NCBI GenBank assembly: GCA_018287875.1
Contig: JAGVVL010000013.1
Span: 248,001 to 312,000, forward strand
From: Nigrospora sphaerica
Taxonomy: Eukaryota; Ascomycota; Sordariomycetes; Amphisphaeriales; Apiosporaceae
Length of the DNA stretch: 64,000 nt
Direction: 5' to 3'
The notes under the pieces are model-generated. The model saw nothing but the letters and a program-made list of their open reading frames with translations. It searched no databases and was not told the origin of the DNA. Below, piece after piece: positions 13,878 to 30,742 of this stretch; the first letter of the stretch is position 1, and each line of letters starts with the position of its first letter. Made by a program: the position numbers and the translations under genes.

Positions 13878-14438
13878 TGTTGGAAGTGATGGTTTGATCG
13901 AAAAGAGGAAGCAACCCCTTTATAAGGGCTCTTTCGATCTCGGAGGCCGTTCCTTAAGGATAAAGGAACACGGAAGAGTAGGAACTTCTCTTGAGGGGGG
14001 TAGAGAGTGAGATCTCTAAGTTGCTTGCTTATTTCCGAGACTATGTACACAAAGAGGGAAGATTTATCCCTTATTTATACCCTTTTAACCCTTTATCCTC
14101 TTAGTAATACGAAGAGGAGACGCGTAAGTGGACGCGTAAGCAGTGACGTGGCTTAAAAGCACGTGGACGCTTATAGAACCTCGTGGGACCATGTAGAGGC
14201 TTGTGGAACCTCATGGAAGTACGTGGAAACTCGTAGAAACTTATAGAAGGTTCCGAGTGGCGTAGGCCACGTATACAGAAAAAGTGGCCCTAGCTTTAGG
14301 GTAGGGTGGCCCGTGCTGTCGGGTAAGGTGGCCCGAGCTTTAGGGCAGTCTCGGTTAAAGGACTAGCTTTTCGATAAGTGCATAGCTAAGTCCTTAACGA
14401 AGGATAACGGTATAGGGGTAAGCCCTATACTTTTAACA
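13878..14438 (+). repeat. Solo LTR, subfamily B
   Basis: 561 bp, same length as the copy at 4535-5095, from TGTTGGAAGTGATGG to CTATACTTTTAACA. Flanks CTTCT and CTCCT differ by one transition, fitting an aged 5-bp duplication. It lies 134 bases after the previous LTR in the same orientation, but the gap is too short to be an element interior, so these are separate insertions. Confidence 0.85.
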
Positions 14439-15548
14439 CTCCTTAAGTCACTAAGGCGAAGGCGGAAAACTGGGGGCTATTAAAGATACTAAACGGCTTA
14501 GTAGCTGCCCTAAGTTAGAAGCCTCACGATCACTAGATAGCTAATACGCCTTTGCAGAGTTCACAGTGAGTATAATAGTAGCTGTTAAGCTTAATTAATA
14601 CTATGCACCCTTTAAAGAGGATAAGGAAACCTTAATTAGGCGATTTTCAGATAACTACTTCCTAGAGTTTTTACGTTTATTAAGAGACAAGTACGTGGGG
14701 GACAACAGAGTTGAACCTTATAGCCACAACCCGCCCTCGCCTCCTCACCTTATTTTTCCACCTCAGTTATTCTCTTATAAGCTAAAACAAGAAAACAGTC
14801 CTTTAAAGCTAATAGAGCAGCTTAACACTATATATAAGATAGTGGCGTAGAAGGTATAACCTGTTAATAACTATCTGTTGGACATGACTATACTAGCTAG
14901 CTTAACGTTATAAAAGAACAAAGCAATATAAAAGATCGGAGATAGATTGCTGCCTAGACTAATAGAGGGGATAATAAGAAATATACAGCTAAGGTTCTTT
15001 ACTATAGGACTTAAAGAGCAGCTAACAGATAAGCGATAGACAGAGATCCTTAATTAGCTTAAATCCTAGGAGATAACTCCGGAAGAAATGGCTATCTTTA
15101 AGCAGATCCTTTAAAACTGAGAAGTATACTTAGCTTAGGATACTACAAATATAGGCCAGATTCGGCTAAAGATCTTACCTTTATATAAGATCAGGACTGT
15201 TCTATATATCGCGTGGTAAGTTAAGAACGTGCCGATCCTTAATACATCGATACTAAAGGCGATCAAGGTACTAAAGAAGAGACTAGCTAAAAGATAAGTA
15301 AAGGAATACTACAGACTATACCGAAATAGCTGGTTTATAGTGAGTAAGAAAGATAGAAGCGTAAAGCTAATTAACTTGACGACTCAGCTTAATAGAGTTA
15401 TGATTAAAGACGCGCTCTTACTTAAAAGGTGCAACGAGTTTGCTGAAGCCTTTTTGAACTATTAAATACTTACAAAACTCTTCTTTAAATACAACCACTA
15501 TTTATTTACAGAGAGGAGTAAAGATATGATAGCTTTTTTAACATCTTT
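14439..15548 (+). pseudogene. RIP-degraded gypsy pol (protease and RT part 1)
   Basis: AT-rich, stop-filled, but the 3' end reads clearly as Ty3/gypsy reverse transcriptase: from about 15307 YRLYRNSWFIVSKKDRSVKL, INLTTQLNRVMIKDALL, then the acidic segment ending RSKDMIAF near 15533. These are the conserved RT blocks of fungal gypsy elements (YRNPWF.VKKKDG..RLIN, N..T.RDA, D.RS.DMTAF in the family). The reading continues after the inserted solo LTR at 16110. The upstream part is probably the gag-protease linker but is too decayed to annotate. Stops are consistent with C-to-T changes. Confidence 0.75.
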
Positions 15549-16109
15549 TGTTAAAAGTATAGCGCTTACCCGTATACCGTTATCCTTCGTTAAGGACTTA
15601 GCTATACACTTATTGAAAAGCTAGTCCTTTAACCGAGACTGCCCTAAAGCTCGGGCCACCTTACCCGACAGCACGGGCCACCCTACCCTAAAGCTAGGGC
15701 CACTTTTTCTGTATACGTGGCCTACGCCACTTGGAACCTTCTATAAGTTTCTACGAGTTTCCACGTACTTCCATGAGGTTCCACAAGCCTCTACATGGTC
15801 CCACGAGGTTCTATAAGCGTCCACGTGCTTTTAAGCCACGTCACTGCTTACGCGTCCACTTACGCGTCTCCTCTTCGTATTACTAAGAGGATAAAGGGTT
15901 AAAAGGGTATAAATAAGGGATAAATCTTCCCTCTTTGTGTACATAGTCTCGGAAATAAGCAAGCAACTTAGAGATCTCACTCTCTAACCCCCTTAAGAGA
16001 AGTTCCTACTCTTTCGTGTTCCTTTATCTTTAAGGAACGGCCTCCGAGATCGAAAGAGCCCTTATAAAGGGGTTGCTTCCTCTTTCCGATCGAACCACCA
16101 CTTCCAACA
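15549..16109 (-). repeat. Solo LTR, subfamily B, inserted in gypsy RT
   Basis: 561-bp minus-strand LTR, from TGTTAAAAGTATAGCGC (plus-strand left end) to CCACTTCCAACA. Flanks TCTTT and CCTTT match at four of five. The gypsy RT reading stops at the left side and resumes at the right side, which proves insertion into that element. Confidence 0.85.
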
Positions 16110-16333
16110 CCTTTTAAAGTATCAAGATAGATAACGTTACCCTAAGGATTCACGAACTTACTAAGATATTTTATTCGAGTGATAGCTAGGATTCTGTTCG
16201 ATATTGTAAAAGAAAAGGCCTACTTTTTCTTCGACGATACGCTAGTTAAAAGACCAACTATATATTATCTTAATTAAGAGCTCTACCTTAGGGTTCGACG
16301 GTTTATCCCTAAGCACCTTGAAAACCTAGATAC
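16110..16333 (+). pseudogene. RIP-degraded gypsy pol (RT part 2)
   Basis: Continuation of the RT begun at 14439. The translation gives FTNLLRYFIRVIARILFD, then FFFDDTLVKRP where the family has the catalytic F(L/M)DD..VKGP, and RRFIPKHLENLDT at the end. Two stops (after KVSR and ITLP) replace Trp/Met or Gln-type positions. The reading is cut at 16333 by the chromovirus 5' LTR and does not resume after the 3' LTR. Confidence 0.75.
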
Positions 16334-16566
16334 TGTAAAGGGGCCGGGCGGGCGGATCGGCGGTGCGTCGGCGCGCCGGCGGGAAGCAAGCGCCAGGGCG
16401 GTCGCCGAAACGGCGGAGCGGCGCCACGTTAATCCGGGGCGCCCTTATGCAGAATCTGGCCGCGCCCGCAAACGGAGGGACGGCCAGATTGAAGTCAATA
16501 CAGCCAGCCAGTCATTGGAATTGCGTGCACATAGTCACCTCGTTCGATTCGTATCATTCCGTTACA
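16334..16566 (+). repeat. Chromovirus 5' LTR
   Basis: 233 bp from TGTAAAGGGGCCGGG to CATTCCGTTACA, same length and, as read, same sequence as 25503-25735. GC-rich in the first half. The TG..CA ends are inverted repeats (TGTAA/TTACA). Confidence 0.92.
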
Positions 16567-16602
16567 ATTCTTCAATCTCTACACCACGAGAACGAGCCGG
16601 CT

Positions 16603-17664
16603 ATGGCACCCGCTACCCGATCGCGCCCCGACAGCTCGACGCCCGGTCAAGCAAGCTCACCCCAACTTAGGGTTAGGAGCCAACGAGCCAGCCGCGCCGA
16701 GCAACGCGGCGATCCCCGGCGCCCTGACTACCGGAGCGGGCACGGTGGAGGGGCGCCCGTTCCCAATGGACGAAGGGCCCACGGGCGCGGACGAACCGCG
16801 ACCATCCGGCGAAACGGATCCAAGCCCAACGCCGGGACCCGACATGTCAACCCCTCGGAGTCCGATCTGTTCCGGGTCGCCACGCGGGAGAACGACCTTC
16901 TCCGCGCGCTGCTGAAGACACAGCAGAAGATGATCGAGATGATGACGGCGGACCGAGCCGACCGCCAACGGGGTCAAGGACTAACGCCGCCCAGTCGGAG
17001 CACGAGCGGAGAACCGCGCACGTACGAGAAGCCACCGACTTACGCATGCAAGAAGCTAGAGGAGGCCTCGACCCACGTGGAGATCCGAAGCTGGATCGTG
17101 GCGGTGGAACAACAAAACGAGAGCCGACCCGACCAGACGGATGCTCGCTATATCGAATGGGCCCTCACCAACGTGGACTACGCCTTGCAAAGCGAGTGGC
17201 GCACCCACGCCGAAGATCTATACCCGCAAGGGAAATACAGCGAGCAGGCCAAGTGGGCAGACTTCTTAAAGTTCATTCGACGGGAACACATCGACCCGGC
17301 TCAGAATATGCAGAGGTCAATGGCGGCGCTACAACGGATCCGGCAAACGGCCGACCAATCGCCGACACAGTTCTATAACGAGTGGTCCGCGTGGCAGCGA
17401 CGGGTTCGAGAGAGCATCGCAGGCCAGCCCCTCATCGCACACGAGTTCCTACTCAAGCTGCGACCGTGGCTACGGATGGACATCATTCGGGATAACGTTG
17501 CTATCACCGACGCCCAAGCGGTCGCCCACGAGGCGGAGCGTCGATGGCAGATCCTCTCCCTTATCAGCGAAGGGATCGCGAAGGGACACGCGACGGGACT
17601 CCGGGAGGAAGGAAGCGACCCCGGGCCGAGCACGAGTTTAGCGGGACCCGACAGGGGTATGTGA
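16603..17664 (+). CDS. gag: Chromovirus Gag
   Basis: Structural protein that packages element RNA. The ATG at 16603 (MAPATRSRPDSS) is the first in the gag frame after the 5' LTR; the frame itself is open back into the LTR. An Arg-rich N-terminal third is followed by a retrotransposon Gag core, with YALQSEWRTHAEDLYPQGKY near residue 210 and later QFYNEWSAWQRRV and AHEFLLKLRPWLR, motifs of the Ty3-type Gag domain. The frame stops at 17664 (after PDRGM), but a -1 shift just before leads into a linker and the zinc knuckle, so the stop is probably not the natural Gag end. Confidence 0.85.
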   Translation: MAPATRSRPDSSTPGQASSPQLRVRSQRASRAEQRGDPRRPDYRSGHGGGAPVPNGRRAHGRGRTATIRRNGSKPNAGTRHVNPSESDLFRVATRENDLLRALLKTQQKMIEMMTADRADRQRGQGLTPPSRSTSGEPRTYEKPPTYACKKLEEASTHVEIRSWIVAVEQQNESRPDQTDARYIEWALTNVDYALQSEWRTHAEDLYPQGKYSEQAKWADFLKFIRREHIDPAQNMQRSMAALQRIRQTADQSPTQFYNEWSAWQRRVRESIAGQPLIAHEFLLKLRPWLRMDIIRDNVAITDAQAVAHEAERRWQILSLISEGIAKGHATGLREEGSDPGPSTSLAGPDRGM

Positions 17665-17950
17665 ACCAGGCGGTGGTGCAACCAGCGTCGAAGGTTCGTC
17701 GAGGGGGTTCGGCCCAGGCGCCACCGAGAGGAGACCCCGCCCGAAGTACGTCCGTTGCTATAAATGCGGCGAGGGGGCCATATCCAGCGGGATTGTACGG
17801 CCAAGCCGCCGGGCAGGCAATCCCCGGCGGCGCACACCGGCGCTACACGAGCGGCCGGCGCGCGGATCCAGGCGGCAGAGGTGAAGCAAGAGACGCCCCA
17901 GTACCGATCCGACTCCGACTGGAGCGCGAGCGAGGCGGGAAATGTGTAGC
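17665..17950 (+). pseudogene. Gag C-terminal zinc knuckle, frame-broken
   Basis: The plus-strand reading RPKYVRCYKCGEG is followed one frame over by GHIQRDCTAKPPGRQ. Together they make a canonical CX2CX4HX4C zinc knuckle (Cys at 17756 and 17765). The break falls in a run of five G where six are needed. Zinc knuckles bind element RNA. The segment ends at a stop after SEAGNV near 17949. Confidence 0.75.
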
Positions 17951-17989
17951 TGAGCCGGACGGAGCGCAAGACGACTCAGCGGACACACA

Positions 17990-18361
17990 CCGCGCGACAG
18001 GGGTGCTAGGCGCGGCCATGCGCACCACGGGCCAGTTATGCGACGAACTCGGCCGAGCGAAGAAGCCGATTCGGATCGACCTGGATTCGGGGCCGAGGTC
18101 AACGTGATCGCAAAGCGGACGGCGGATCGAGCCGTCACGAGGGGTTGGGTTACGAAAGTCCCCATAACTCTGCCGCGACTTTTAGGGGTCGACGGGCAGC
18201 CGCTACGGTGCTATGGCGCCGTGGAAGCGGCGATAGAGATGCAAGACGTGCAAGGGCAGGTACGGAGGTTCACGCAGGTGTTCTTCGTCGTGCGCCGAGA
18301 TAAGCACGCGGCCCAGGTGCTACTGTCCCGCCCGGGCATGGGGCGGGAGGAATTACCTTAG
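17990..18361 (+). pseudogene. Chromovirus aspartic protease, frame-broken
   Basis: Retropepsin-type protease that cuts the polyprotein. The reading KKPIRIDLDSG stops being coherent in a run of four G near 18095 and continues one frame over as AEVNVIAKRTADRAV, so the active-site motif is DSGAE. Later blocks include VPITLPRLLGVDGQPLRCYG and VLLSRPGMGRE. Another shift near 18345 leads to ITLDTRKPDTFTF and the RT. No RIP-type stops were seen. Confidence 0.8.
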
Positions 18362-18393
18362 ACACACGAAAGCCAGACACGTTCACGTTTAGA

Positions 18394-20110
18394 GTGATGC
18401 AGTTCGTGGGGCCAGAGGAGTTCGCCCGCGAAGCGACCGAAGGCGAACCGGTGCTAATCGCCCAGCTAGCGAGGCTAGAGTTAGGTGACGCGTCGGCGAT
18501 ACCGGGGCTTGACGACGAACCGCCCATAGGGACCGTCGCGCTACCAGCCTGTTTAAAGGAGTACGAGGTCGTGTTTAGTGAGTCCGCAGCCGCGGAGCCG
18601 CCTATTTTAGGAGAGACACCGCACACGATCGACCTCATCCCCGGCGCACAGCCTCCACACGGACCTATCTATCCCCTCTCAGAACCGCAACGAAAGGAGC
18701 TCGAGGAGTACCTCGCGAAGGCGTTGGAAACCGGTCGCATTAGGCACTCCACGAGCCCGGCGGGGGCACCCGTGCTATTCGTGCCAAAAAGGACGGCAGT
18801 CTACGACTATGCGTCGATTACCGGGGCCTAAATAAGGTCACGGTAAAGAACCGATATCCGCTTCCGCTAATTAGCGAGCTGATGGATCAGCTGGGGTCGG
18901 CGAAGGTGTTCTCGAAGATGGATTTACGAGACGCCTATTTTCGCCTCGCAATCGCAGAGGGCGACCGCTGGAAGACCGCGTTCCGAACGAAGTACGGCCA
19001 CTTCGAGTATAACGTGATGGCCATGGGGCTCACGAACGCGCCCGCCACGTTTCAGGCCTATATGCAGAAGGCATTAGCAGGGCTCATTGACACCATTTGC
19101 GTGGTTTACCTCGACGACATCGTCATCTACTCGCAGGACGCGAAGGAACACGCGACGCATCTCCGAATGGTGTGCGAACGGCTGAAGGAGCACGAGCTAT
19201 TTGCGAAGATCTCGAAGTGCGAATTCTTTAAAGAGGAAATCGAGTTCCTAGGATTCGTGGTCGGCCGAGTAGGCTTAAAGATGGACCCGAAACGAGTGAT
19301 AGCCGTGCAGGAATGGCAGCCTCCTGAGTCGTACCGGGACATCCAAGTGTTCCTAGGGTTCACCAACTTCTATAGGAAGTTCATTGCGAAGTACTCGCAT
19401 ATCACGGCACCGATTACGGCGCTACTGAAAGGCATGGAGGCCGGCCGGAAGAAGGGCCCGTTCCAGTGGCCCCTGGACGCACAGAAGGCGTTCGAAGAGC
19501 TAAAGCACGCGTTCACTTCGGCGACGGTGCTCCGACACTGGGACCCGGAGAAAACTAGCAGGGTCGAGACAGACGCGAGTGATAGGGCAGTCTCAGGCAT
19601 CCTATCACAGAAACAAGGAGGTGGCGAGTGGAGGCCAGTCGCCTACTGGTCGCGGAAACTCACGGCGCCCGAGCTGAACTGGGCCACGGGCCAAAAGGAA
19701 CTGCTAGCGATTGTCGAATCACTCGAGCATTGGAGACACTACCTTGAGGGGCTGAGCGCCAAGTTCACGGTCTGGACCGACCACCAGGCACTGAAAGGGG
19801 TCGTGGAAGCACCGGCGAGAGACTTACGAGGCCGCCTCGCAAGATGGGTGTACAGGCTCTCGCATTTTGACTTCGATATGGAATATCGGAAGGGGGCCAC
19901 GAACCCGGCGGATCCGCTATCGCGGCGACCAGACTACATGGCTGGGGAGATCAGCTACCACGACGTGATTCCGTCACTAGCAATGAAACTGGCACTCGTC
20001 GACCAGCTGCCGGCCGAGGTCCGACACCAGGTGGCAAGGATCAGCACCACGAGAAACGTCGGGACCGCGACGTACGTGGGGGCGGTGCGGGCGATGGTGA
20101 CGCACACAGA
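18394..20110 (+). pseudogene. Chromovirus reverse transcriptase and RNase H, one frameshift
   Basis: RNA-dependent DNA polymerase with its RNase H. The first frame (18394-18831) reaches PVLFVPK and then breaks in an A run near 18786; the true reading resumes with LRLCVDYRGLNKV and runs open from before 18882. RT hallmarks: FSKMDLRDAYFRLAI, NVMAMGLTNAPATFQ and the catalytic VVYLDDIVIYS at about 19109. RNase H: VETDASDRAVSG near 19563 with the first catalytic Asp, ELLAIVE and VWTDHQALKG. The frame remains open to 20402, but after about 20100 its composition no longer fits and the integrase is in another frame. Confidence 0.9.
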
Positions 20111-20221
20111 CAAAAGGTCGGCGGGTGGCCAGGGGGGACGCGGTCCTTGCCCCGGTAACCCGGGCACAAGGCCAGGGAGGGCCACCCACGACGAGGCGCC
20201 GAGCAGTGATCGACGAGGCCG

Positions 20222-21208
20222 GTGGGGGGACAGGTGCTCCCGAGAGCAGTGGCTCGAAGCGTGGCAAGAAACGAGACCACTTGGGCGGATAAGCCCACTG
20301 AGGCGTTCTACCAGCTCATTCGGGGGCTACAACCCCAGGACCGGGACATCGCGGAACGAATGGAGAAGGCGCGGCAAGGCCAAGCTGCGGGGTACCACCT
20401 AGACGAGGAAGGAGCCCTCCGATTTAAAGGAAGGCTAGTCATCCCTAATGAGGGAGCGTTAAGGGCCCAACTACTCCACCAACACCACGATGACCCCAGG
20501 GCGGGACACCTAGGCGCGAATAAGACCTTAGAGCTGCTCACGAGGAAGTTCCACTGGCCCGCGATCGCCGAGGAGGTGCGACAGTACGCAGAGTCATGCC
20601 AGGAGTGCCAGGGAGCAAGGAGACCAAGGCACAAACCGTACGGCCTACTCCAATCCCTACCGCTACCCGAGGGACCCTGGCAAGAGATTAGCATGGACTT
20701 CATCACTGGGCTGCCGATCAGCTGCCGACCCGAGGGCGACGCCTGCGACGCCGTGTTAGTCATCGTGGACCGATTCACGAAGATGGCACTGTTCCTACCC
20801 ACGAGGAAAACCCTAACTGCGGCAGAGTTAGCCCATATCCTGTATAAGGAAGTGGAATGCCGGTACGGGACGCCCCTCGGGATTGTGAGCGATAGGGACT
20901 CCCTACTCACGAGCCGGTTCTGGCAAGAGTGGTGCGAGGCAAGGGCAACGAAACGCCGGCTGAGCACGGCGTACCATCCCCAAACGGACGGGCAGACAGA
21001 GAGAACGCACCAAACACTAGAGAAGTGGTTACGCACGTGTTGCGACGAGGCGACATGGGCATCCGGGCTACACGAAGCCGAGTTCGCCTATAATAACCGC
21101 CGCCACGACTCCATCGGGGTGTCACCGTTTGAGGCGCTGTATGGATTTCACCCGAGGATGACGGAGTTCGCCCCCAAGCAGAACGCTTTCGGAGCGCGGG
21201 CGTGTTAG
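20222..21208 (+). CDS. Chromovirus integrase
   Basis: Integrase that inserts the cDNA. The frame opens in the RNase H-integrase linker. The N-terminal zinc domain is visible as HHDDPRAGHLG followed by CQECQGARRP (HHCC). The catalytic core has DFITGLP (first Asp), GIVSDRDSLL (second Asp) and QTDGQTERTHQTLEKW (Glu). AEFAYNNRRHDSIGVSPFE is the conserved post-core block. A 1-base shift near 21195 separates it from the chromodomain frame, where ARAC-stop would otherwise end it. It is nearly full length for this domain. Confidence 0.88.
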   Translation: MGGQVLPRAVARSVARNETTWADKPTEAFYQLIRGLQPQDRDIAERMEKARQGQAAGYHLDEEGALRFKGRLVIPNEGALRAQLLHQHHDDPRAGHLGANKTLELLTRKFHWPAIAEEVRQYAESCQECQGARRPRHKPYGLLQSLPLPEGPWQEISMDFITGLPISCRPEGDACDAVLVIVDRFTKMALFLPTRKTLTAAELAHILYKEVECRYGTPLGIVSDRDSLLTSRFWQEWCEARATKRRLSTAYHPQTDGQTERTHQTLEKWLRTCCDEATWASGLHEAEFAYNNRRHDSIGVSPFEALYGFHPRMTEFAPKQNAFGARAC

Positions 21209-21804
21209 AACGGCTACAGAAGAGCCGAGAGGTCCGCGCGCGTATGAGAGAACACTGGGACGTCGCAGTGAAAGCCCAACAAAAGGGCTACGACCGAAGG
21301 CACCAGGACCAAGAGTTCCAACCAGGTCAGTGGGTAGGCCTCTCGACGAAGCGGTTCCGATTTAAGTGCGGTGCGAAGCTCGCCCCGACGTACATTCGGG
21401 TAAAGGTCACGGAGAGGATTGGTAAGGTGGCCTACAGGGTCGCCCTGCCCTCGCAGTACGAACGGATACACGACGTGTTCCCAGTGTCATCGTTGGAGCC
21501 ATGGACTGGCAAGGCCTCCGGGGACCATGAGGCACTCCCAGGACTGGTGGAGGACCAAGAGGAGTGGGAGGTCGAGGATATCCTCCGACACAGGACGACC
21601 GCCCGAGGGGCGGAGTACCTCGTGAAATGGATGGGCTGGCCGGTGGAATATAACACCTGGGAGCCAGAGGCGAACCTGGAGAACGCGCCGAAGATCGTGG
21701 CACGCTATCGTAAGCGGCGGTCCCACCGTAAATGGGACGACGATCGCCCTCCGAGCACAGGAAATCACGGAGTGGCGGGGCGCGAAGCGCAGCAGATCAA
21801 TTAA
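21202..21804 (+). CDS. Integrase C-terminus with chromodomain
   Basis: Last part of the pol product in a separate frame from the integrase core. It begins LERLQKSREVRARM, carries a GPY/F-like module (GKVAYRVALP, HDVFPVSSLEPW) and ends with a chromodomain: EWEVEDILRHRTT, EYLVKWMGWPVEYNTWEPE and NAPKIVARY. Chromodomains of this group direct integration to chromatin, often with methylated histone H3. The listed start is a GTG and only marks the open frame; the protein is expected as part of Pol. Confidence 0.88.
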   Translation: MLERLQKSREVRARMREHWDVAVKAQQKGYDRRHQDQEFQPGQWVGLSTKRFRFKCGAKLAPTYIRVKVTERIGKVAYRVALPSQYERIHDVFPVSSLEPWTGKASGDHEALPGLVEDQEEWEVEDILRHRTTARGAEYLVKWMGWPVEYNTWEPEANLENAPKIVARYRKRRSHRKWDDDRPPSTGNHGVAGREAQQIN

Positions 21805-21973
21805 CGAGGCCAGGGCCTAGAAGTACACGGAGCTAAGCCATGCAATTGCTGTGGAAGGTCGCACGCGGCATGCAGAGTAGGACGCAGGAGGTCCGCTAGG
21901 CGGCGTACGGGCGACGAGGATCCGCCAAAGCGCAGGACGCAGCGGATGAGGGGACGGCAAACTAGGTGACGCG

Positions 21974-24900
21974 TCAGGGCGACCTAGCGGCGAGACGGGC
22001 GAAGGCGTCGCGAAGGAGGGGTCCAGCCGAGGGACCGTGAGCCGCGTCGTCGGCGGCAGAGCGGCGACGTTTGGCACCTCGGGTCGACGAGGACGGCGAG
22101 ACGGCGGGCGGAGCGATGCCACCGAGGACGTTGATCCGTCGCAAGCCGAGTGACGAGAAGGCGCTGTTGTAGTACTCCTCCATTGCGGCCGGGGACCAGT
22201 CCTTAAACGGCAGGGGGAGGAGCCGCCGCCGGAAGGCTAGTCACGATCTCGGAGACGTACCGGGGTGTGTACCCAGCTCCAATGGGATCGGGGCGGGTAG
22301 CGTCGATCGGGAAGCGGCGCAGGACATGCGATCGTCCGCCGGCCTGGGCAAGCCGAGCCAGAGAGATGGCCAGCTCGGGGAGCACAACCAAGGACGTCAG
22401 CCGTCGCCGAGAGCGTGATGGTGGCCACGTCGAGGTTCTCAGTGTCTCGCGTGTGCTGAACACTAGGCGGCGCGGGATGGGAATCCCAGCGCATAGCCGT
22501 GTCTATCTCGCGGTTCGCCGAGTGGAGACTGAAGTGCCGGGCCCAAAGGACGTCCCGGAAGGCGGTAACGCTGACAGGGGGAGCGGGGTCAGGATACAGC
22601 TCGAGGATGCGGTTCATGGCCCGTCGGCGGGCGAGCGCCCATTGCTCGGCAGTCCAGTGTGGGTCCACGGACGGGCCGGTCGGGGCAAGAGCTTGCGCGG
22701 GTGGCGGCATTTGCGCCGACGCGTCAGTGCCCCCGAGACCATGTCAACATCGCCATCAGGGCTAGGGGAGCGGTCACCGCCGGTGTCGGAGCCAACGGAC
22801 AGGGCGTTGCCGCCGTCGGACGCATCTGGGTCGGCGACCGCGCTCAAGGGAGAGGAAGGGCCGCACGAGTCCAGACCGTCCACGACATCGGAACCAGAGC
22901 GGCTACTGTCCAGCGAGGAAACGTCGCGACCGCCGTCGCCGGGCATGCTGAAGTTTACCCGCTTAGGCGAAGCGAACGGGTCGTACTCGCCTTGCCATAG
23001 CCCGGAGAGGCGCTGTAAGTACGCTGGCCGTTCGCCGGCGACGAGAGGGGACGGCAGCGAGCCGCCGGACGAAGGCAAGGGGTGTAGACGTCGAAGCCAG
23101 GTCTCGAAACCGCGTCGGGCAGTATGGTAAACGTCGTACATTGCGACAGGATTATGGTGGCCTCCAACCTCGGAAGGGCGGGGGGGAACCAAATCGCGAA
23201 ACTCAATGAGTTTCTGGTCACGAGCGGACGAATGAGGTGGCTCGGCGACGGTCGTGGGGACCTGGTCGAACTTATGCCACAGTTCCAAGCGCGCGGCGAC
23301 GCAGTCGCGATACTCCTCCGCGGACCAAGGCTTCTCAGGCAGAGGACAGGTATTGGAGATCATCGTGAGATGGATCCGCCGCTCGGCCCGCCACTCCACC
23401 ATCGAGGAGGCGCCGCTAGCGGAGGGAGCACCGCTAGCAGAGCGGACGCCGGAGGCAGGGCTGGAGGGCCAGGGTGTCGCAGCACGAGTGGAGCGCTGGA
23501 CCCGAGAGGCCGGCGCAGAGGACATCGGCGCGTCCGACAGGGACGCAGCAGAGGACAGCAGGTCGCGATCCTCTAGCGCAGGCGCGCCCGAGCCACCCCG
23601 GCCGGAGGGGCCAGGACGGGCACTGGAGCCGGAAGGAGAGCTGCGACCGGACGGCGACTGGACGTACTCGCCATCGTCGTCAGTGTCCGCACCCAGGCTC
23701 GAGGCGTCGTCGTCAGAGTCCTCGTCGTCGGAAGGCGATTCATCGCCAGGCATCGCGGCGGGGACTGGCGTGAAGGGCGACGAAGGCCCGGCGGAGTCGA
23801 CTCGTGCGTCGGAATGGGATCGGCGGACAGACGCCTTGCTACCCTACCGGAAGTGTTAACTAAGGACCGGTCGCGTCAAAACGAAGACGGGGAGGACTCA
23901 CCGGGGTACGGCGACCAGGGGCGGCGGGACCTGCTCGAGCAACGCGGCTCTTACCATGTTTCTCCCGCCGGGCGTGGTTGACACCAAACCACGAATCAAC
24001 CCTCGCAGCACCTTTTTTCTGCGATCGTTTGAACCGACGCTGCCAATCGATATCCGATGTGGCCTCGCCCGCGAGAAAATGGTATCCAGGCGCCCAGCGG
24101 TACAGCTTGTCGTCGTAGTTGTCGACGGTTAGGCGATAAAGTTCCTCGCAGTGCGCGATAAGGCGGGACAGGCTATCGGCACTGCGATCGCCGACAGGAA
24201 GGGCGAGGGTGTATCGCCGCTGGTACTCCTCAGCACTGACAGGCTCCCGTTGGCCATGGGCGCCCTACCGGAACACGATTAGAACCAGTACGCCGACGCG
24301 GCGGCGAAAGGAGGGGAAACTCACGGCGAGGATGTCCGTTTGTAATTGGACGAACCGGCGCTGGCTCTGCGCCTCAACAACGGCGAGGGAGTTGGCGGCT
24401 TCGCGCTTTTTCTGTTCCTTGCGCTCCTGGAAGACGGCAATGTCCTCCTCATTGCAGCATAGGCGGAAAGCCATCGCCGCCTCGTGGTAGACCGTCTTGA
24501 GCGACCCATAGGCTTGGACGTATCGCCAGTTCCAATTGGAACTGCCCACCTGGCCCATGTGGGTACCGCGGTATTGAAGGACGCGAAGATGGGCGATGCC
24601 AGCGGTGAGGACGCGGCCGGCACCGACCAATTCCTCGGGAATCTAAACGCGTCAGCCATCGCAACACAGTCGCGGGCAAAGGGCAACACAAACGGCGACA
24701 CATTTGCGATGATCAATGGCGCAGATCCCGCACTTGCCGGCACCCTCACAGTTCAGAGAGGGATCAACAGCGCCGGTCGTGACACTGTTGCAACAAAAGG
24801 CATTGGGGCTAGAGGGGAGGGTTAGCAACGCCCGAGGCAGCCGAGCGAGGCCCGATAGAGCGCCGACCAGGATGCGGGACGCACAAGGAAACGACAAGAT

Positions 24901-25030
24901 CGTCGTCGGCGTTCCGGGACAAAGGGCCGCCGGAGTGTCCAAAACGAAAGACAGAGTGACAGGCGGGGAGGACCTCCCACTCGCGAATGCGGTTAAGCGC
25001 GTCCTCGCGCGAGTAGATCGGGTACAGCAT
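21974..25030 (-). CDS. Antisense spliced gene inside the chromovirus
   Basis: A minus-strand gene between pol and the 3' LTR. ATG at 25030 (MLYPIYSREDALNRI). Exons that join in phase: 25030-24885, 24808-24694, 24642-24325, 24264-23902, then 23843 onward. Introns: GTGCGT..GCTAAC..CTCTAG (76 bp), GTTTGT..CTGAC..TTTAG (51 bp), GTGAGT..CTAAT..GGTAG (60 bp), GTGAGT..GTTAAC..GGTAG (58 bp). The product has a Cys-rich motif (CEGAGKCGICAIDHRKC), a charged probable coiled coil (FQERKEQKKREAANSLAVVE), a Ser/Asp-rich middle (DDEDSDDDASS) and a KRRRS basic patch near the C-terminus, about 850-900 residues in all. After about 22740 the coding frame moves three times; introns fit two changes (TAG acceptor near 22468; AAG near 22195) and a G-run deletion the other. 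Function unknown; perhaps nucleic acid binding. The exact 3' exon structure is uncertain. Confidence 0.6.
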
Positions 25031-25227
25031 TGTCGGCGAACAGTCGAAGAACGAATGGATGAGGAACAGAGAGCGTCACGAAACACGAGACGTACGGGGA
25101 ATGGAGAGGTCGCCTGCCACAAGGAACGGGAACAAAGGAAAGCTGCAACCAGGCGCCGACCCAGGAGTTGGTATGGAGTACGGAGCTACAAACAAAGCCG
25201 AGCCCTCGGCGCCCCAGGCAGCAACAC

Positions 25228-25268
25228 GGGCAGCGAGGCAGCGAGGCGGCGAGGCGGCGAGGCCGCCG
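25228..25268. repeat. Short GGCGGCGA/GGCAGCGA tandem repeat
   Basis: A run of 8-base units of the form GGCAGCGA then GGCGGCGA lies in the stretch between the antisense gene start and the 3' LTR. This interval (25031-25502) is GC-rich and would include any promoter of the antisense gene. No TATA box was identified. Confidence 0.55.
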
Positions 25269-25502
25269 CGACAGAGAGCGCGACTGGAGACAAACACGCA
25301 GCGCGGGGCAGCGCCGCCCAGGCAACGACCGGCCGCCGATGGGCGGGCCAGCAGACATAACGAGCGCATAGGACAACCCCACGAAGGGCGGCGACCACAA
25401 GGTGGCGGGCCAAGGACCCACGCGGCGCGGCGCACCCGAGACCGCTCCACCGATAGGAATTCCACGGGCGCCGGAGACCGGGCCCAGGAATTGGGGGGGC
25501 AT

Positions 25503-25735
25503 TGTAAAGGGGCCGGGCGGGCGGATCGGCGGTGCGTCGGCGCGCCGGCGGGAAGCAAGCGCCAGGGCGGTCGCCGAAACGGCGGAGCGGCGCCACGTTA
25601 ATCCGGGGCGCCCTTATGCAGAATCTGGCCGCGCCCGCAAACGGAGGGACGGCCAGATTGAAGTCAATACAGCCAGCCAGTCATTGGAATTGCGTGCACA
25701 TAGTCACCTCGTTCGATTCGTATCATTCCGTTACA
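25503..25735 (+). repeat. Chromovirus 3' LTR
   Basis: 233 bp, read as identical to the 5' LTR at 16334-16566. Preceded by a G-rich tract. Downstream DNA (25736-26078) is AT-rich, holds no gene, and does not continue the gypsy RT that flanks the 5' LTR. Confidence 0.92.
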
Positions 25736-26078
25736 CGAGCCCTCTTTCCCTTAGTTATCTTTAATAATAAAAACGTTTAATAGTAATAGTTTAATAATAA
25801 GATGTTTAATAACGACGACTTAAGTAATAAAAGCTCGGCTTTAACGGCTTTAGCAACTTAAGTAATAAGATAACGCTATATTAACTATATAAGGTGTTTC
25901 TTTTATAAACAAAGCCTTAGAATTCTTAATAGTAGCGCTATTTAATTATCGATGGCCATAATAGCCATATTAATAAGCCTTTTCTTTTAGCGCACTGCTT
26001 ATAAATTCTTTAACCACTTAATGTCGGCCCTTTCTTAATGTTAAAGCGGCGGTTCGAGTTTATCTTACATATCACTTA

Positions 26079-26628
26079 TGTTAAAAGTATAGGGCTTACC
26101 TCTATACCGTTATTCTCCGTTACGGACTAAGCTATGCACTTAACGGAAAGCTAGTCCTTTAACCGAGACTGCTCTAAAGCTTAGGCCACCTTATCCTACA
26201 GCACGGGCCACCCTATCCTAAAGCTAGTGCTATTTTTTCTATATATGTGGCCTACGCCACTTGGAACCTTCTATAAGTTTCTACGTACTTCTATAAGGTT
26301 CCACGAGCCTCCACGTGGTTCTACGAGGTTCCACAAGCGTCCAAGTGCTTCTAAGCCACGTCACTGCTTACTTGTCCACTTACGCGTCCCCTCTTTGTAT
26401 TACTAAGAGGATAAAGGGTTGTCAGGGTATAAATAAGGGATAAATCTTCCCTCTTCGTGTACATAGTCTCGGAAGCAAGCAAGCAACTTAGAGATTTTAC
26501 TCTCGACCCCCTTAAGAGAAGTTCTTATTCTTCCGTGTTCCTTTATCCTTAAGGAACGGCCTCTGAGATCGAAAGAACCCTTAAAAAAAGGGTTGCTTCC
26601 TCTTCCGATCGAACCACCACTTTCAACA
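26079..26628 (-). repeat. Solo LTR, subfamily B, with perfect 5-bp target duplication
   Basis: 550-bp minus-strand LTR from TGTTAAAAGTATAGGGC to CACTTTCAACA on the plus strand. ACTTA flanks both sides (26074-26078 and 26629-26633). It keeps the GTGGC..GCCAC hairpin and the decamer array. It shows the uninterrupted target site into which the short element at 11354 inserted. Confidence 0.87.
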
Positions 26629-27360
26629 ACTTATTATTTTATAATGGCTATAGTTACCGGTAAACTAAAGTTTATAGCGGTGACACAAAAAGCAGAGAGG
26701 GTCAAACAGAAGGTGGTGTTCATGCTATCTGCTGCAGCGCTGGCGGCGCTGCTGGGATTATTTACTCTCGAACACACGGTCTCCACTTCATCGGGTGGCA
26801 GGGCCTTGACAGCTGCCTCAGATTGGCAGGGTCCCAGGTCCGTCACGTATCAAGCGGCCTAAAAACGGGCTTAAAGTGAAGCCCTCATAAAGTAGAAAAT
26901 GCTTCAGGGCTAGAAGTTAACTAACATCTATTTAAGAGACCGATTTAAGGCGCTCAATAACAGGCTAACTATATAGGCTGATGCTATGACTATAAACGTA
27001 TTAAACTAGCCAAAAAGATTAAATAAAGCCCTTTAAGCTTTAAAAAACTATCTTTAAACTCTTCAGAATAGCAAGAACTTGTCACGGTTTGAGGAACAAA
27101 AGATCTGTTAATAACCCAAGGGTTTTATTAAGATGTGAAAACTACAGGTGAAGAGAAAAAGAAGAAGAACAAGCTCCTCTCAGTCACTGTTTGGCAGGAA
27201 TATATCCAGCCAGCAGCGGTACGTACCGCCAGGCAAGCGGTAAGTCGTCTATGCGTTCCCATGCTCTTGTACCTATATACCTATGCCGTAATAGGACTTA
27301 AGAGAATTAAAGACATTTATTTTAATGAAAGATGGCCTACTATAGACTACCGGGGTCCGC
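26629..27360. other. Mixed AT-rich DNA with a GC-richer patch; no assigned gene
   Basis: A 90-codon plus frame (26593-26862) overlaps the LTR end and a GC-richer patch (26640-26870) that could be a fragment of a host gene, but neither strand gives a known motif. A plus-strand read near 26930 (RDRFKALNNRLTI with nearby stops) hints at a retroelement gag. A possible LTR-like start, TGTCACGGTTTGAGGAAC, is at about 27077. Nothing here can be assigned firmly. Confidence 0.4.
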
Positions 27361-27554: not shown

Positions 27555-30500
27555 CTAGCTGATGAGTTGATTCGCCAGCTGGAACATGTCCAGCCTTCCG
27601 GAGCGGAGTAGCCATCTCGCGATAATTCCTGCTTTTCCTGGGGTGTCGAGCATCCTGTCCGTGTCTATCGGTCCTCCTAAAGCTTGGACGAGATGCTCTC
27701 GTCTTTCTCTTTCCCGTGGGCAGAAAACGAGGATATGCCGGACGGTCTCCCTGCCCTGACCGCAGACGCACCAGGGGCTGTCGAAGCCCGGGACCCTGCG
27801 CTTAAAAAGGAAGTCTCGCAGCCCAATCTTGCCAGTCCTTGCTTGGACGAGGATGGAGCTCTCGGCCTTATGGAGTCCCTTATGGAGCTTGAGGACGTGC
27901 TTGCCTGGCGGTATCTTAGTTGCTGCCGGGGTCCGTGCTGTTCGATTTTGCTGCGCTTGTTGCCATCTTTGAAGCCAGTCTCTCTCCTTAGCCTTATGTG
28001 TTGAGTCTCCAGCTAGCCATTCGTCTAGCCACCTCTTACGATCGGGAGCGTCGGGGCCTTTCGGTCTGCGCCGGCGAGTCGGTCTTGTTAGGATCCATCT
28101 AGCTGCGCTATCGCACCTTGCTTGGATAAGTGATGCGATACGCGGCTGTTGGAGCCTCTCTTCCGATGCCGCCACCCTTCTGTTGAGCCACGTGTCTAAG
28201 GGGATACGTAAGCTTCCGTTTCTAGTACTGCAGTGGCCGTGGCTTTGAAAGCTCCTGTGACCTTTCGGAGGCACTCTGTCTGGACGTCGTTAAGTGCCTT
28301 GGCTCTATTTTTCGAGATCTGGCGGTGCCACTCTGAAGCTCCATAGCCTATCGCAGACCGTACGACGGCTGTATAGACTTGGCGGGCTCGCTGGAGAGAC
28401 GCGCCCCATATCGAGCTGGCTATCCGGTCTAGAGCATAGACCTGCGTCGCCATCTTCTTCGATATCGACTGGATGTGGACGTCCCAGCGGAGACGTCTAT
28501 CCACCTGGATGCCAAGGACGCGGCAGGAGTCTTCTGGTTCGATTTCGTGGCCTTCTAAGGCTATCTTTATGTCCGGACCTTTCCGTCTTCGAGAGAAGTG
28601 GACTAGGTGATATTTCTGGATTGCAAAGGTCATGCCGTGGCTGACTGCCCATTCTTTACAGATCCTGTGAGCGGCTTCCAGCCGCTCGCAAGTCTGCTCG
28701 GGGTCCAAACCGAAGCCCACGAGGTTCGTGTCGTCTGCAAAGGCTATAGTAGCTATTCCTAGTATAGCGCGGAGAGCCTTATAAAGACCGGCTGTATAGA
28801 GGCAGAAGAGGATGGGCGATAAGGGTGAGCCCTGCGGGACGCCTGCCGGAACTGGGATCTCGTCCGATTCCTGGCTGTCGAAGAATAGCGTAGTGGACCG
28901 GTTAGATAAGAAGCTTCGGATCCAGCTAATAGTCCATATAGGGACCCTTAGCGCTCGCAGGTTAGCGAGGAGCCTTCCATGGTCGACCGAGTCGAAAGCG
29001 CCTGAGATATCCAGCGAAAGAAGGGTTGCTACGCCTCCATACTTCCAGGCTGTACGGACCAGGTCCGTTAGCAGCCGCAAGGCCGTTTCCGTGGAGCGGC
29101 CCTTTCGGTTCCCCATCTGTTCGTCCGGGAGCAGCCCGTTTTCTTCCGCAAAGCTGGCTAGCCGTTGCGCCAGCAGGCTCTCGATCACCTTCCCCATGGT
29201 GTTAAGCAGCGCGATAGGTCTCCATCCGCCGGCTTGGTGATACTCGTTTGGCTGCTTTCCTGGCTTCCGGAGGATAACGGTGACTGCTTTCCGGAACGCT
29301 CTTGGATAGTATCCTATATGCCAGCACGCTTCCGCTAGGGAGGCCAAGGCCTGGAAGAGGGGCTTTCCTAGGCGTTTAAGGAATCCGTTCGGAAGCTGGT
29401 CTGGTCCAGGTGCCTTCCACTGGCCTGCCTTAGTAAGGACGTCTTGGACTTGTTCTGCTGTCACCTTGCTGTCCATATCGAGAGGCGCTGCGAGCTGGTT
29501 CGTTGTTCGGAAGCCGGTGTACGTAGCCTTAGGGAGGGGATAGAACCTCTCTCGGAAGGCCTCTGTTTTCTCCTTATGGGTCGTTGCTTCGCCACGCGGT
29601 GTGTAGAGTGTAGGGACTGCCGGGGGTAACGGCGGTGCTGCTCCTTCCGTTCTTGCCCATCTCGCGATATTCCAGACGCCAGCTGGCTGGCTAGACGCCT
29701 CGTGGAGCATATGTCTCCAGGACACCGTCTTGGCTTCTCGGATTGCTTTCTTCTTTGAGAGAGTTGACTGCCGGAGGGCTCGCCAAGCTACGTCCGTCCT
29801 ATCGGAAAGCCATATCCACTGGGCTCTTCGCTCCTTCTCTATAGCTTCTTCTGTCTCGTGGTTCCACCAGGCTTTTCCTCTCCCTTTAGAGTAGCGGAGG
29901 GGGGCAACTAGGTCGGCTATCCGGGTTAATTCCTTAGTTAACGTTTCAGTGTAGCTATCGATTTTTTCTGGTGTCTCGAGTCGCCCTGGCTGTGGTAGGT
30001 GTGCCGCTTCTGCCTTCGCCTGGTCATAGTCAGCTGTTTTCCAGCTGCGTCGTGGCCTGTCTTGGCGGTCTGTATAGAGTCCAGCCACGCGTATCACCTG
30101 GGGGAGGTGATCGGATCCAGCAAATGGGGCGTACCCGTCGTAGGCAGCTCGGAGATCGTCCGTGGCCCACGCTAAGTCGATCGTGGAGTCCATGCACCCT
30201 CTTCGAGTCCATGTCGGTGTTCCAGGGGGGGTGATCAGCTGGAGTCTCCAGGATTCTGCTAGCTGGAGCAGCTTGTTGGCTGCATTATGGGGTCGGACGT
30301 TGTATCCTCCCCAGACGGAGTGGTGGACGTTGAAGTCTCCCACGAGGACTGTTCGTCTTAGCTGGGGTTCGGCATAGAGGGCTTCGATAGCGGGTAGGTC
30401 CGATCTGCTGGTGGACCCAGGGGGAGGCGAGTATATGCAGACAACCGTTATAGGACCGTCTAGCAGCTGGATCGTGATATGGCACCTGTCTGGCTGCGCC

Positions 30501-30742
30501 TTGTAGGTCCACTGTGCTAAGGGGAACTTCTTGTTAATATATATGCAAGCTCTACCTCCCTCGGTAGCGTATAGGAGGTGGTACGGAGAGGATCTTGGGC
30601 AGTAGGTAGTCGGCATATGTGGGTTTCGCCAGGGCTCTTGGATAGCCAGTACGTCGTATTCTTTGGAGATGGCATCAACTGCCGGGATCTGTGCTTTCTT
30701 ACTTTTCTGCGTGTTCCAGTGTAGGATCCTTAGCGCTGTCAT
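27555..30742 (-). pseudogene. LINE 1 ORF2 (endonuclease-reverse transcriptase), one frameshift
   Basis: Enzyme of target-primed reverse transcription. Open for 848 codons (30742-28196) and then shifted by one missing C near 28200; the frame resumes and ends at 27555, giving about 1062 residues when the shift is counted. The apurinic-type endonuclease has WNTQK, QEPWRNP, VGDFNVHHSVWGG, STIDLAWA and GSDHLP. RT blocks are GWRPIALLNTMGK, LSLDISGAFDSVDH, PQGSPLSPILFCLY and the catalytic IAFADDTNLVG. After the shift, a C-terminal CVCGQGRETVRHILVFC matches the Cys/His motif typical of this LINE group. No RNase H motif was seen. ORF2 begins within ORF1's stop (ATGA). Confidence 0.92.

Follow-up and report, generated by a model that had tools for sequence, protein, structure and literature searches.

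A predicted spliced, protein-coding antisense gene beside the 3' long terminal repeat of a chromovirus in Nigrospora sphaerica

What is the chain of open reading frames that runs against the genes of a fungal retrotransposon, next to its 3' end? The question is raised by a 9.4-kb chromovirus at 16334-25735, lying between two identical 233-nt long terminal repeats (LTRs), in the 64,000-nucleotide stretch of the Nigrospora sphaerica genome analysed here (contig JAGVVL010000013.1, positions 248,001 to 312,000; the window). The frames lie between pol and the 3' LTR on the opposite strand, which is the location of the aORF-3R class. Judged from sequence, they form a coding gene shaped by purifying selection, because codon-level selection is found in the antisense frame. 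We consider it probable that the element carries here a second, independent gene in antisense, spliced and with a promoter of its own, whose product is likely a nuclear accessory regulator.

The preliminary description of this locus proposed a spliced minus-strand gene, and five exons, from 25030 to about 22740, can indeed be joined in phase once four introns bearing fungal splice signals are taken out. The parts, with the ratio of nonsynonymous to synonymous substitution rates (dN/dS, omega) where it could be measured, are:

25031..25502, minus strand: presumed antisense promoter and 5' untranslated region, placed by position between the antisense ATG and the 3' LTR; promoter activity putative
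24885..25030, minus strand: exon 1, beginning with ATG; free of indels in 18/18 other copies
24809..24884, minus strand: intron 1, 76 nt, GTGCGT...GCTAAC...TAG
24694..24808, minus strand: exon 2, Cys-rich, CC-x13-C-x5-C-x2-C-x6-C
24643..24693, minus strand: intron 2, 51 nt, GTTTGT...GCTGAC...TAG; in 19/19 copies
24325..24642, minus strand: exon 3, charged and helical in appearance; omega 0.03 for the 32 codons at the exon end
24265..24324, minus strand: intron 3, 60 nt, GTGAGT...TCTAAT...TAG; in 19/19 copies and in the remnant L021
23902..24264, minus strand: exon 4; omega 0.113 over 120 codons
23844..23901, minus strand: intron 4, 58 nt, GTGAGT...GTTAAC...TAG; in 19/19 copies and in L021
22614..23843, minus strand: exon 5, first Ser/Asp-rich and then basic; the frame stays open until the stop at 22614-22616 and is judged coding as far as about 22740
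21974..22613, minus strand: further coding-looking antisense frames, not joined in the window copy

The branch-point-like motifs between donor and acceptor (GCTAAC, GCTGAC, TCTAAT and GTTAAC) were chosen by eye, as was a pyrimidine-rich run ahead of CGACAATG in 25031..25502. Reading through introns 1 and 3 leads to a stop exactly at the acceptor TAG, and introns 2 and 4 contain earlier stops; the coincidence of stop and acceptor, claimed beforehand for three upstream frames, thus holds at two of the four introns. GC content at the three codon positions of the antisense gene is 0.67, 0.56 and 0.71, and the product starts with a Cys-rich N-terminus, continues with charged and then Ser/Asp-rich sequence and also has basic patches. 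The exons amount to 723 codons, including the tail to 22614. A length of about 900 residues, as first suggested, is not established, because the frames below about 22738 are unjoined in the window copy. By eye the coding-looking frame shifts there at a G-run, where L020, a copy altered by repeat-induced point mutation (RIP), has one additional base; downstream lie an antisense frame at 22710-22237 and another ending near 21974. The window copy lacks two bases at 22366 that are present in 18/18 other copies and has one base at 22581 that 14/18 of them lack.

The evidence that carries the coding reading comes from L021, a remnant of 85% identity that extends from late exon 3 through exon 4 into early exon 5. 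Compared with L021, the antisense frame of the window gene gives omega of 0.113 in exon 4 (120 codons) and 0.03 in the sampled part of exon 3 (32 codons). The differences fall 12, 9 and 48 on codon positions one, two and three (48 of 69 at third positions, p 9e-10), and the remaining antisense frames give omega of 1.4 to 2.6 where it is defined; across exon 4, the sense strand has values of 1.6 and 2.2 in two of its three frames. The dN/dS check proposed in the preliminary description therefore comes out far below 1 in the sole usable diverged relative of the window family. L021 also keeps introns 3 and 4, with CAG rather than TAG as the acceptor of intron 3. In L056, a relative that is heavily RIP-mutated, the changes left after exclusion of the RIP type fall 58, 44 and 95 on the three positions over 565 codons of exons 1 and 3-5 together (p 1e-5), and third positions lean the same way in L053 and L055 (p 0.02 and 0.04). 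In L053, whose amino-acid identity is about 30%, introns 2 and 3 stand in unchanged positions (by eye), with stops further on; the antisense gene family is old. Two other comparisons were discarded: C>T and G>A changes make up 205 of the 235 substitutions in L020, as left by RIP (180 of the 205 in CpA or CpG contexts), and the near-identical copies differ at just six substitution sites. A stop-free frame of at least 409 codons arose in one of 200 dinucleotide shuffles, so that frame length alone is weak evidence and codon-level selection strong evidence. As an observation apart, L055:4858-5463 holds an open frame of 201 codons, about 41% identical to a portion of exon 4. It has been assigned to no element and may be either a remnant or an exon that was domesticated.

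A search for copies across the 51.6-Mb genome returned 22 places: 19 near-identical copies, the window included, one at 93% (L020) and two partial ones (85% and 71%). The antisense region is present in all 19 and in L020. All four donors are exact in 19/19 copies and so are the acceptors, except that of intron 1 (17/19), where L016 and L018 are without one base upstream of the TAG. Not one of the 19 has lost an intron, as copying through the sense genomic RNA would predict: the introns are reversed in this RNA and cannot be spliced from it. The preliminary description looked for conservation of splice sites and frame among copies; the splice sites are conserved, whereas the frame as assembled is not, with one or more run-length indels within exons 1-5 in 17 of the other 18 copies. 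By exon, the copies with an indel number 0, 2, 1, 11 and 17 of the 18, exon 5 being counted to 22740; an A-run at 24013-24018 in exon 4 is one base shorter in 11/18. Seven of the 18 are free of indels through exons 1-4 and only L002 through all five. Since 59 of the 65 indel events lie within runs of at least four equal bases, and the whole 3.7-kb region has only six substitution sites, we read these indels as probable noise of the long-read assembly; decay by indels only would be unexpected in young copies that carry so few substitutions. L020 (C5:1941000-1949000) is itself RIP-mutated at CpA and CpG, whereas the 19 copies show no such mutation; RIP is or was at work in this lineage, and the recent burst of 19 copies escaped it.

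The gene does not stand alone. Three of the five chromovirus families sampled carry an antisense gene, namely that of the window, a sister and a third. The sister is the closest other pol lineage in our comparison table (49-50% in the chromodomain region, five loci), and an antisense match adjoins the chromodomain at 5/5 of its loci, of which L061 and L062 were read whole and L066 partly. Unlike the window gene, the sister gene has four exons; its introns have the donors GCGAGT (or GTATTT), GTATGT and GTGAGT, CTAAC/CTGAC motifs and CAG or TAG acceptors. L066 and L062, whose exons 2 and 4 are about 60% identical in amino acids, share all three intron places, and between them omega is 0.225 over 268 codons from all exons, with 126 of 254 differences at third positions (p 6e-8), compared with 0.97 to 3.0 in the wrong frames of each exon.

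In the third family (L063) the antisense frame is unspliced and has 211 codons (L063:2923-3555, plus strand of the locus, antisense to pol), overlapping approximately the last 120 bases of pol. Its cysteines, C-x2-C-x6-C-x9-C-x2-C-x7-C, are followed by a long helix and have the spacing of the Zn2Cys6 consensus, C-x2-C-x6-C-x5-12-C-x2-C-x6-8-C. The predicted fold (mean pLDDT 72.8) finds Gal4-type domains as its best Foldseek matches, weakly, and a profile search of PDB sequences returned mainly coiled coils, with PUT3 at E 0.98. The 21 database matches of this frame are one from Apiospora, 11 from Pyricularia (hypothetical protein) and nine unnamed. Apiospora and Pyricularia are both Sordariomycetes, and such multi-copy hypothetical proteins are possibly an unrecognised retrotransposon gene in the annotations. 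Antisense frames in L063-L065 were placed relative to the chromodomain match or pol. Neither of the two remaining families, L064 and L065, shows an antisense gene. L065 has no antisense frame of at least 70 codons within about 2.5 kb of its chromodomain match; L064 has its first one only on the far side of a purine tract that stands some 135 bp from that match. The products of the three families gave no credible BLASTP match to each other (best E 0.023, in charged sequence). They have in common a Cys-rich N-terminus, a charged part after it and the half-motif C-x5-9-C-x2-C-x6-7-C, which in the sister contains one extra Cys, and a common origin is possible. These comparisons suggest that the antisense gene is an accessory component of such elements and not a one-off.

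The sense strand identifies the host element. Reverse transcriptase, RNase H, integrase and a C-terminal chromodomain follow in order between the LTRs, as in a chromovirus:

16334..16566, plus strand: 5' LTR, 233 nt, with TG...CA ends; same sequence as the 3' LTR
16363..17664, plus strand: gag-like frame of 433 codons, its start overlapping the 5' LTR
18882..20402, plus strand: pol, reverse transcriptase and RNase H (PF00078, PF17917, PF17919)
20222..21208, plus strand: pol, integrase zinc-binding and core domains (PF17921, PF00665), a separate frame in the window copy
21202..21804, plus strand: pol, SH3-like domain and chromodomain (PF00385, PF24626), where sense coding ends
25503..25735, plus strand: 3' LTR, with the purine-rich tract GGAATTGGGGGGGCAT just before it

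The gag-like frame has no Pfam match and takes its label from position only. Sense coding in the window copy is broken over several frames, and the split of pol, together with one-base differences in the length of base runs among near-copies, points to long-read assembly noise. Four plus-strand frames, of 287, 201, 214 and 150 amino acids, lie between the chromodomain end at 21804 and the 3' LTR, and none of them has a Pfam match. No target-site duplication is obvious in the LTR flanks. The chromovirus is flanked by a direct repeat (15545-16113 and 26075-26632, 84-88% identity), with a further, inverted copy at 14000-14438, and may have inserted inside an older repeat. Its neighbour at 28196-30742 on the minus strand is an unbroken frame of 848 codons with the endonuclease and reverse transcriptase domains of a non-LTR retrotransposon.

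How might such a gene work? An antisense promoter in the 470 bp beside the 3' LTR, or within the LTR, would drive an mRNA that the host would splice. The sense genomic RNA, with the introns reversed, would go unspliced through reverse transcription, and the introns would outlast each round of copying. The product would most likely be a nuclear accessory regulator acting on element transcription, silencing state or integration site, a role likened to that proposed for the antisense products of plant Grande elements and to that of HBZ of human T-cell leukemia virus type 1 (HTLV-1). The promoter, the splicing by the host, the nuclear product and its regulatory role are what we infer. The earlier argument that sense genomic RNA is unable to splice these introns is supported by their reversed orientation and by the absence of intron loss among the copies. 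Its suggestion of an element-encoded regulator fares well in one half, as a spliced, apparently protein-coding antisense gene is carried by the element; the regulatory half stays a likely role.

Several points weigh against this reading. As assembled, just the window copy and L002 (2/19) are free of indels across exons 1-5, and the 3' end of the gene is not joined beyond about 22740 in the window copy. L021, the main yardstick of selection, is a fragment with two stops in the antisense frame and therefore a dead copy, whose divergence mostly accumulated under selection. The sense frame that shares third positions with the antisense frame has omega of 0.193, and it contains stops at 4 of 120 codons in one or the other copy. 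Third-position excess is not significant in L057 (6/12) and L022 (18/45). Transcription and splicing of the antisense strand are so far predictions. Finally, no homologue or domain gives the window protein a function. The spliced product had no homologue at E 1e-3 among 7,992 candidates scored and its residues 1-320 none at E 1 among 4,823, in searches that depend on shared 5-residue words; the 723-residue product matched no Pfam family up to E 10, including TRP28 (PF04195) of the Retand antisense proteins, and has only the second half of the Zn2Cys6 spacing, with no Pfam match to it.

An additional feature of the sister gene bears on a wider possibility. Its exon 1 (L062:1801-1592, minus strand) contains an in-frame UAG between the first cysteine pair and the next. 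The UAG is kept in L061, L062, L066, L067, L069 and L070, of which L067, L069 and L070 are partly RIP-mutated; the RIP-mutated L071-L073 have UAA at the site, L074 does not span it, and the more distant L068 has AUU there and a UAG elsewhere. The codons on both sides are constrained (24 before, omega 0.194; 40 after, omega 0.121). The UAG lies in the loop of a predicted hairpin that is strong in L066 (z -3.8) and weak in L062 (z -1.5, with 8% of shuffles equally stable), and a paired stem change between the two was noted by eye; in L067, L069 and others the folds differ and the placement in a loop is less clear. In filamentous ascomycetes adenosine-to-inosine (A-to-I) editing of mRNA is active in sexual development and converts UAG to UGG; it favours hairpin loops and a U preceding the A, and the DNA methyltransferase gene FgRID is among the genes that need UAG editing (PMC11156358). 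That the UAG is a splice acceptor or part of an intron we think unlikely, as the codons on both sides are constrained in one frame; moreover, by eye, L066 is without the GT that L062 has directly before it. Our guess is that the UAG is a candidate for A-to-I editing, with readthrough an equal alternative.

RIP attacks repeats in the sexual stage. This allows a bolder extension, to which we give only a small chance: that chromoviruses of this lineage carry an antisense multi-intron gene as standard equipment, encoding fast-evolving Cys-cluster nuclear proteins that counter silencing, and that the sister protein, which would be completed only through recoding of the conserved UAG, is made when A-to-I editing is active, in the sexual stage. 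If this were true, the element would be using the editing clock of its host to time an anti-silencing factor to the moment when RIP attacks repeats.

Other explanations of the window gene have to be considered. The preliminary description had offered a captured host gene, and in its recent form, an antisense capture by this one element of a gene that now travels as passenger DNA, we find this improbable. Intron-rich genes are typical of host loci, our protein searches yielded no element-borne homologue, and L055, an isolated open fragment at C7:680890 with 41% identity to a portion of exon 4, has been assigned to no element. However, the counterparts in the sister and third families, the old RIP-mutated remnants and the relative at about 30% identity that shares two intron positions led us to set recent capture aside, and purifying selection also speaks against it. 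No intact stand-alone paralogue is found among the scored genome matches, the short open L055 aside.

Equally doubtful in our view is that the antisense transcript itself is what matters, as a spliced long non-coding RNA that pairs with genomic RNA and acts through RNA interference or other regulation. Complementary RNA is expected from convergent transcription, and Ty3 and Ty1 elements of the barley powdery mildew Blumeria hordei produce spliced antisense long non-coding RNAs, seen by long reads and judged to encode no meaningful peptides (PMC10648671). Such a role does not predict mainly synonymous change in one frame or exact exon frames in two families, and the window gene differs from the Blumeria transcripts in that its codons show selection. 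A non-coding RNA role may exist alongside the protein.

Very unlikely is another transposon that inserted inversely and was then fixed in the element. It would account for a foreign, intron-bearing block, but neither the spliced product nor the tested frames contain any Pfam domain, transposase and reverse transcriptase included, and the same place holds unrelated-looking genes in other families, which therefore favours a niche over a single insertion. Least credible is that the frames opened by chance in a GC-rich 3' region that codes for nothing, that they mirror a sense gene or that the gene is already dead: at 65% GC a frame of 409 codons is uncommon without being extreme (1/200 shuffles), plus-strand frames of 150 to 287 amino acids are present and 17/18 other copies have indels in exon 4 or 5 as assembled, yet the antisense frame is open with low omega while the sole low-omega sense frame contains stops, splice signals are kept between sister copies at about 60% amino-acid identity, the four plus frames lack Pfam matches, and the indels lie mostly in base runs with almost no substitutions alongside; for exons 3 and 4 the selection test refutes chance, which may still hold for 22613-21974.

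With a coding antisense gene as the preferred reading, known systems offer several likenesses. HBZ of HTLV-1 is an antisense gene that starts near the 3' LTR, is spliced and encodes a nuclear regulator, a bZIP protein; its likeness to the window gene is one of layout only and no sequence relation is claimed. An antisense gene, brtn, was reportedly described in Boty-like chromoviruses of Botrytis cinerea by Zhao et al. 2011 (Virology 417:248). A 2020 review places antisense extra genes, that of Boty included, between pol and the 3' LTR (PMC7264820); brtn is also treated in PMC8365987 and PMC4227169, and is absent from the last B05.10 annotation (PMC8365987). By published description, brtn resembles the window gene in being an extra antisense gene of a chromodomain-bearing Ty3/gypsy element from a fungus. 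Antisense genes in similar position are also known from the plant elements Grande (gene23), RIRE2 and Retand, and the product of the Grande gene is reported to be nuclear, with an antisense promoter lying upstream (PMC7264820, PMC11963269). Retand, however, belongs to a non-chromovirus lineage (PMC11963269), whereas the window element is a chromovirus, and its antisense products carry TRP28 (PF04195), for which the window protein has no match. The word "intron" is absent from the main text of PMC7264820 and PMC11963269, while the window gene has four introns. An antisense extra gene in a fungal chromovirus is thus already published, and the novelty first supposed narrows to the multi-intron structure; in a literature survey, none of the listed titles and abstract openings reported a fungal chromovirus carrying an antisense coding gene with several introns. 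What is new here is this structure, the measured selection and the recurrence across families.

The same review describes the function of antisense genes as unknown and urges attention to antisense and spliced transcripts (PMC7264820). The window gene makes the function of antisense genes in retrotransposons testable in one fungus, and its multi-intron structure cannot be erased by the element's own copying. If the UAG of the sister gene is recoded, it would tie the expression of a retrotransposon gene to fungal mRNA editing. More generally, our results suggest that spliced antisense transcripts of fungal transposons should be given a selection test before they are labelled non-coding.

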